From: a bacterium
GTDB taxonomy: Bacteria > UBP15 > UBA6099 > JAJRTR01
Assembly: GCA_024278215.1 (NCBI GenBank)
Contig: JAJRTR010000115.1
Coordinates: 1 to 5,511 of the forward strand
Direction of reading: 5' to 3'
Length of the DNA: 5,511 bases
In this document: positions 1 through 5,511 of the stretch, one piece after another
How positions within the stretch are numbered: position 1 is the stretch's first letter
Layout of the letters: the number at the start of each line of letters is the position of its first letter
Made by a program: the position numbers and the translations under genes
The notes under the pieces: generated by a model
What the model was told of the DNA's origin: nothing
What the model saw: only the letters and a program-made list of their open reading frames with translations
Database searches by the model: none

Positions 1-140
1 GAAATTGTTCAGAACAAGGCGGAGGTGTAAAATCCTCGCAGGCGTACTTGCAGAGTACGTCGAGGACGATTTTGCGCCGACAACGCAGCTATGGACAATA
101 GCAGCCGACCGCAGCAGAATCAGAATTTTGCAATTGGCTC
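1..140 (+). repeat. Palindromic MITE-like repeat, copy A (left end cut by window)
   Basis: Bases 1-103 match 5409-5511 with three differences (at 14, 51 and 75 of this copy). The right end is the 17-mer at 124-140, the exact reverse complement of 5371-5387, which begins copy B. Joining the copies gives a ~178-bp element with 17-bp terminal inverted repeats. The whole element is an imperfect palindrome: 43-48 (CGTACT) pairs with 54-59 (AGTACG) around loop 49-53, and CCTCG near 34-38 can pair with CGAGG at 61-65 with bulges. The loop centre (51) coincides with the midpoint of the inferred element (51.5), which supports the inferred ends. About 38 bases of this copy lie left of the window. It contains no coding frame. 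It is most likely a non-autonomous mobile element or a REP/BIME-type dispersed repeat. No transposase is present to say which family would move it. Confidence 0.85.
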
Positions 141-151
141 AATAGTATCCG

Positions 152-5262: not shown

Positions 5263-5370
5263 AAGTCATTTGCGGCGGACTGTGTCGGCTGAGCAGGGAA
5301 CACCTTTTTATTTCGATGGATAACAATAAACAAAAGATAATCGGGAAAATACTATTAAGAACTGTATAAA

Positions 5371-5511
5371 GAGCCAATTGCAAAATTATGTTCGTAGCGA
5401 GGTCGAGCGAAATTGTTCAGAGCAAGGCGGAGGTGTAAAATCCTCGCAGGCGTACTTGTAGAGTACGTCGAGGACGATTTTGTGCCGACAACGCAGCTAT
5501 GGACAATAGCA
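5371..5511 (+). repeat. Palindromic MITE-like repeat, copy B (right end cut by window)
   Basis: This copy supplies the left end missing from copy A. It starts with GAGCCAATTGCAAAATT (5371-5387), the exact reverse complement of 124-140, and from 5409 on repeats bases 1-103 in the same orientation. Differences from copy A are at 5422, 5459 and 5483. Position 5459 is the apex base of the loop, so that change leaves pairing intact. About 37 bases would lie beyond the window. The copy sits about 145 bases upstream of the TTG-started gene's -10 box, in A/T-rich DNA. No target-site duplication can be judged because neither copy is complete. Confidence 0.85.

Follow-up and report, generated by a model that had tools for sequence, protein, structure and literature searches.

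The window analysed here, the whole stretch of 5,511 bp, is one complete contig (C89) of a host assembly of 207 contigs representing a 4.55-Mb genome. Its genes are ordinary (dCMP/cytidine deaminase, SCP2-like, HAD hydrolase, BKACE, alpha/beta hydrolase and DUF2505) and lie between two partial copies of one repeat, within which both window ends fall. The features of the two copies, all on the forward strand, are as follows.

1..140 (+): copy A, spanning element positions 39-178 and truncated where the contig begins
15..20 (+): core motif CAAGGC of copy A, left side of the conserved internal loop
41..64 (+): core apex of copy A, GGCGTACTT-loop-GTACGTCGAG
81..88 (+): conserved internal loop of copy A, right-hand side (core motif CAACGCAG)
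124..140 (+): right terminal inverted repeat AATTTTGCAATTGGCTC (copy A), pairing with the left repeat of copy B
141..144 (+): AATA adjoining copy A, presumed one side of a 4-bp target duplication, inferred from other copies
5367..5370 (+): TAAA adjoining copy B, presumed one side of a 4-bp target duplication, inferred from other copies
5371..5511 (+): copy B, spanning element positions 1-141 and truncated where the contig ends
5371..5387 (+): left terminal inverted repeat GAGCCAATTGCAAAATT (copy B), 17 bp perfect versus 124-140
5423..5428 (+): core motif CAAGGC of copy B
5449..5472 (+): core apex of copy B
5489..5496 (+): core motif CAACGCAG of copy B

Copies A and B are partial because the assembly breaks inside the repeat, and the other side of the presumed target duplication of copy A falls beyond the contig. 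The 103 bp common to both copies (1-103 versus 5409-5511) are 97% identical, and joining 5371-5408 to 1-140 produced a sequence of exactly 178 bp, in which 94 of 178 positions match their own reverse complement. This joined sequence is a chimera of two different copies, differing at 3 positions from a 70-copy consensus. Folded as RNA, the element forms a single hairpin with a central loop at -82.2 kcal/mol (z = -9.4), and folded as DNA it reaches -46 kcal/mol (z = -7.7), with 0 of 200 shuffles as stable in either case. A previous sequence-only reading had proposed the 178-bp near-palindrome joined from the two copies, its 17-bp perfect inverted-repeat ends, and a centred loop giving one long hairpin when transcribed, and each of these claims held.

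Many other contigs of the host genome also begin or end within a copy (C149, C148, C88, C83, C53, C37, C71 and others, in a short-read assembly), and the repeat may explain a good part of the 207 contigs.

Copies, target sites and decay in the host genome

The sequence-only reading had called the element MITE-like, and had suggested a search of the genome and its relatives for copies, target-site duplications, and a transposase with matching terminal repeats. Copies were counted in the host genome using a 20-bp end pattern with up to 3 mismatches, and the reversed pattern as control. Since 344 forward and 342 reverse matches (686 in all) were obtained, and 0 with the control, the 4.55-Mb genome carries about 340 copies, one per 13 kb, making up ~1.3% of the sequence. 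The modal copy length was 178 bp (47 of 70 copies). Full copies stop exactly at GAGCC/GGCTC, with unrelated flanking sequence beyond; the proposed boundaries, which would have been refuted by copies ending elsewhere or extending well past these points, therefore held.

Among the 70 full copies with both flanks, a 4-bp direct repeat was present at 44 (1.6 in shuffled flank pairs) and a 5-bp direct repeat at 3 (0.1 in shuffled flank pairs). Insertion targets were A+T-rich and C-N4-G-like, with a preference just outside the duplicated bases for C (20 of 44) and G (26 of 44), indicating a symmetric target. A transposase thus moved the element repeatedly as a discrete 178-bp unit, with 4-bp staggered cuts. 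Divergence of the copies from their consensus ranged from 0.6 to 22.5% (median 5%), meaning that activity was repeated or prolonged.

Within 680 kb of sampled sequence, 41 of 43 full copies lay outside any ORF, and the remaining two were in ORFs, but only in short ones (109 and 125 aa). Arm substitutions in host-genome copies mostly break pairing (249 broken versus 18 compensated), and no strand bias relative to genes was found among these copies (15 to 11). From the uncompensated arm changes and the unbiased orientation, we infer that single copies, once inserted, are not visibly retained for a host function; selection on the pairing of individual copies is unsupported, as most arm changes are uncompensated.

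The criteria for a MITE were met for a short (50-500 bp), non-coding, interspersed and multi-copy unit (178 bp, ~340 copies), for terminal inverted repeats at fixed ends (17 bp perfect; GAGCC/GGCTC), and for a target-site duplication of constant length (4 bp, 44/70 versus 1.6). The criterion of terminal repeats common to an autonomous transposon of the genome was not met. Save for this partner transposase, the element is shown to be a MITE, that is, a non-autonomous transposable hairpin, and the MITE-like reading is supported by copy number, fixed ends, 4-bp duplications and intergenic placement.

For the partner, five transposase families were searched by Pfam in the host genome, without turning up a transposase whose ends begin GAGCCAATTG. 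PF01609 matches were two IS1634-type fragments and an IS4-like element whose ends differ, PF13751 matches were two scraps, and PF13701 gave a single IS1380-type remnant, next to which lies a complete copy unrelated to it; neither PF05598 nor PF13546 had a match. A search for paired ends 0.2-4 kb apart, over the 680 kb sampled and further retrieved loci, yielded nothing but truncated copies and pairs due to chance, including a 1197-bp end pair on C84 that encloses an ordinary non-transposase gene between two truncated copies. Viral contigs with the 17-bp end carried chance matches inside other sequence, and the plasmid and phage records searched held no similar DNA. The host assembly is fragmented by the repeat itself, and the absence of a partner transposase is not proven.

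Other repeats were seen in the same genome. A second, REP-like 23-bp palindrome, CCCGCATTGGTGAAATATGCGGG, lies at 898-919 and 2609-2630 of the window, and had 50 matches (up to 4 mismatches; 680 kb plus window) versus 0 in a shuffled control; it resembles IS1380-type ends. Self-comparison of C139:15004-17917 showed two near-tandem 1.3-kb repeats.

A conserved, covarying core with varied terminal repeats

A relative of the same order holds three copies with the same centre, other ends (GAGRCTCTAACA), and apparent 3-bp duplications. An apex scan (pattern GGCGTACTTN{2,8}GTACGTYGAG over named species genomes) returned at least 107 stretches, from Deltaproteobacteria, Nitrospirae, Acidobacteria, Rokubacteria, Armatimonadetes, Negativicutes, Spirochaetes, Gammaproteobacteria and others. 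Most were near-perfect hairpins of about 116-132 or 176-198 bp with the apex central; a few matches, such as L128, L129, L169 and L217, lie in coding-like sequence and look like chance. Hairpins of the relatives come in two standard sizes, ~125 or ~180 bp, with terminal repeats differing by lineage, and have the core consensus CAAGGC ... GGCGTACTT-loop-GTACGTYGAG ... AACG. The host-genome element meets this family definition, having the CAAGGC/AACG internal loop, the GGCGTACTT...GTACGTYGAG apex and covarying stems, and its copies score up to 71.9 bits with the broad covariance model R2 (see below).

A covariance model of the core, R1, matched 40 of 386 bacterial genomes, in 39 of 327 genera spread over the domain (E <= 1e-3 per genome), with about 0.4 genomes expected by chance, and many genomes had at least 11 copies. 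The private end pattern, run on the same 386 genomes, gave 257 + 257 matches in the host genome and one stray match in the 385 others. The terminal repeats are thus private to the host genome, and the core is not.

Covariation was tested on 111 aligned matches over 17 model pairs, against shuffled and slid versions of the alignment. 90.8% of cells at model pairs were paired, versus 71.1% in shuffles, and the covariation score was 0.489, versus 0.154 shuffled and below 0.1 for every slid version, showing that the core stems vary through compensated changes. Two caveats apply: the alignment was fitted to the model and somewhat favours its pairs, and the apex letters are fixed by the scan pattern, making apex conservation alone uninformative. 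The unpaired motifs CAAGGC and AACG, both absent from the scan pattern, are conserved as well. At one apical pair, 94 of 111 matches have G.U; since this would be A.C on the opposite strand, the folded form is strand-specific, and we infer from it that the folded form is RNA or single-stranded DNA. A conserved, covarying core module thus recurs across many bacterial lineages with varied terminal repeats.

A link between terminal repeats and a transposase was found in a Bryobacterales genome, where two copies of an IS1380-family transposon share 97% identity across a length of exactly 1734 bp and terminate in CTAACCCGCATTTCTCACCA / TGGTGAGATATCCGGGCTA, and the hairpins end in CTAGCCTGCATTTCTCACCA / TGGTGAGAAATGCAGGCTAG, matching these resident ends. 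The match of hairpin ends to resident IS1380-family ends is shown in this one genome; in a second genome, a hairpin and an IS1380-type element match at one end (L267). The Bryobacterales hairpins have the same core as the window element but unrelated ends, and the window's host has only the one IS1380-type remnant. The ~125-bp class has other ends again, often GCTCAAAAAGG, and the PF01609 transposases in short-class genomes included none with short-class ends. Since the ends match IS1380 in Bryobacterales and differ in the ~125-bp class, the ends follow the transposase and the core stays. Lineages are shown to have exchanged the ends while keeping a common core.

Further observations were made on the family. 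Copies within one genome can have different yet complementary arms (L353-L357 in G136, L338-L342 in G137), which could stem from selection, from the presence of several subfamilies, or from quasi-palindrome correction as the DNA replicates. In many lineages, including L326-L336 and many short-class copies, a lone mismatch is found again and again at a distance of about 11-12 bp from the ends (GCTC/AAAAA versus TTTTT/CAGC). In 9 of 174 family elements (L239, L255, L332, L342, L355, L357, L158, L160 and L196) the apex lies within 70 bp of a tRNA or tmRNA gene, on either side, a closeness partly expected from intergenic placement. TD-2, near a Treponema copy, is a separate feature and not the element.

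Probable relation to ERIC and comparison with other repeat families

No Rfam family matched the window above its gathering score, and none covered the element at the eight family loci examined; no description of the core or the wider family was found in the literature searched (most subscription papers and ISfinder were outside the search). ERIC (IRU, RU-1) is a single imperfect hairpin, intergenic and multi-copy, as is the window element, and has been reported only from Enterobacteriaceae and Vibrionaceae (PMC10969869). At 127 bp it has the size of the family's short class, and it shares with the family an AAGGC / AACGNN internal loop and a GGA-GC-TACTT...AGTA-GT-GA apex, its apical stem being one base pair shorter than that of the family core. 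Because size, apex and internal loop are alike, ERIC was tested as a relative. R1 with speed filters missed both ERIC and Correia elements, and the broader model R2, built from A3 with no ERIC sequence among its input and run unfiltered, was adopted for this reason.

Over 57 kb, R2 ranked five ERIC copies first, all in register, with E-values of 0.029-0.097. In a further set of nine loci from enterobacteria and Vibrio, ERIC was the top match every time, in register (best E = 2.4e-4); the copies at these loci are mutually related and do not constitute nine independent tests. In the reverse direction, R3, a model built only on ten ERIC sequences, recovered members of the family in other genomes, with a best E of 2.7e-5 and the top 20 all in register. 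E-values from R2 and R3 are approximate, good to about fivefold near 0.01, and homology was tested at the family level, not with the window copy alone. A G137 copy (L339:122-208) has a shortened, ERIC-type apex, bridging ERIC and the family. From these reciprocal matches, we infer that ERIC is very probably the enterobacterial and Vibrio branch of the core family.

The window element itself is a relative and not ERIC, since it is 178 bp with different ends and variable 4-bp duplications, and does not meet the criterion of 127 bp with the terminal 5'-TA-3' described for ERIC in the review literature (PMC2229807). The sequence-only reading had matched the element to no named family, which held for the ends and probably failed for the core, given its relation to ERIC.

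Another ~200-bp repeat family in the host genome, with 'GAGAAATCCGGG' ends (L103 1696-1900; C84:65692-65799; C112:90980-91091; C112:54841-54952), was matched weakly by R2 (E 0.01-0.08), and is likely a second branch of the core family.

Correia (NEMIS) elements of Neisseria are MITEs with a hairpin, similar motifs (GACAAGGC...CAACGCCG) and a GTAC apex. R2 gave a marginal E of 1.4 at the right place for one short Correia copy only, and R3 found no Correia element in the Neisseria loci, leaving membership in the core family not established. The Neisseria loci further show that being a hairpin MITE is not enough to give a score. The Chunjie MITE of Geobacter uraniireducens is of like size (178-235 bp, dozens of copies; PMC10969869), a likeness noted without sequence comparison. 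REP and REPIN repeats are likewise abundant, palindromic and intergenic, but consist of 20-40 bp units with GTAG or CGTC tags (PMC3733652), are tied to Y1 transposases (PMC2817692), and are not elements with terminal inverted repeats and target-site duplications; the window element, a 178-bp unit having both, does not qualify as one.

Proposed mechanism and its alternatives

The reading we consider likely is that of a mobile hairpin with a conserved folded core and with ends swapped according to the transposases available locally. The terminal repeats would serve as an exchangeable address for a locally available DDE transposase, and the element would be mobilised in trans by whichever such enzyme recognises its ends. 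The core, folded as RNA or as single-stranded lagging-strand DNA, may aid the element's own spread or its tolerance; this is inferred, and the job of the core is not shown. On a bolder version, all these hairpins form a single bacteria-wide family, with the core conserved and the ends swapped so that various transposases can move it (IS1380 in one lineage, others elsewhere), of which ERIC and perhaps Correia elements are branches; we lean towards this version, with reservations.

Three alternatives were considered. In the first, the element is an ordinary MITE, derived from an insertion sequence by internal deletion, with a functionless core, and the likeness across phyla results from horizontal transfer or chance. 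Its mobility features are those of any MITE, and its copies decay freely after insertion, as this explanation would have it. However, a covarying core in 39 genera with differing ends is unexpected for filler or for transfer of the whole element, no parent insertion sequence containing the core was seen, and the observation that would refute the explanation, core covariation in a deeper independent sample, is largely in hand already. We consider it unlikely.

In the second, also unlikely, the hairpin is a host-domesticated structured RNA (a terminator, or an mRNA-stability or processing element) that is mobile in appearance only. In its favour, transcribed ERIC and Correia repeats affect mRNA stability (PMC10969869, PMC2229807), the apex of 9 of 174 elements is no more than 70 bp from a tRNA or tmRNA gene, and the apical G.U is conserved. 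Against it, exact ends, 4-bp duplications and ~340 near-identical copies show transposition, orientation is unbiased, and host-genome copies lose pairing freely.

The third, a single-stranded-DNA element whose folded hairpin is the transposition substrate, as in REP/REPIN or integron attC, draws on the strongly folded, strand-specific apex, the conserved internal loop, and the recurrence of ~125 and ~180 bp sizes across genomes, but is very unlikely, as perfect terminal inverted repeats with 4-bp duplications mark double-strand cut-and-paste by a DDE enzyme, and the ends equal IS1380 transposon ends in one genome.

MITEs are usually seen as collapsed transposons, in which the ends are important and the middle is debris. 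In the mobile hairpin favoured here, the middle is the conserved part, present in about a tenth of 386 genomes, and the ends are private to each lineage. ERIC was named in 1991 and has been used for typing since, its origin being an open question, and for bacterial repeats in general matching transposon ends have mostly not been found (PMC2229807). If the present reading is true, ERIC would belong to a far wider family, with a first candidate for the type of enzyme that mobilises it, and the need of a mobile element for a particular folded core would become directly testable.
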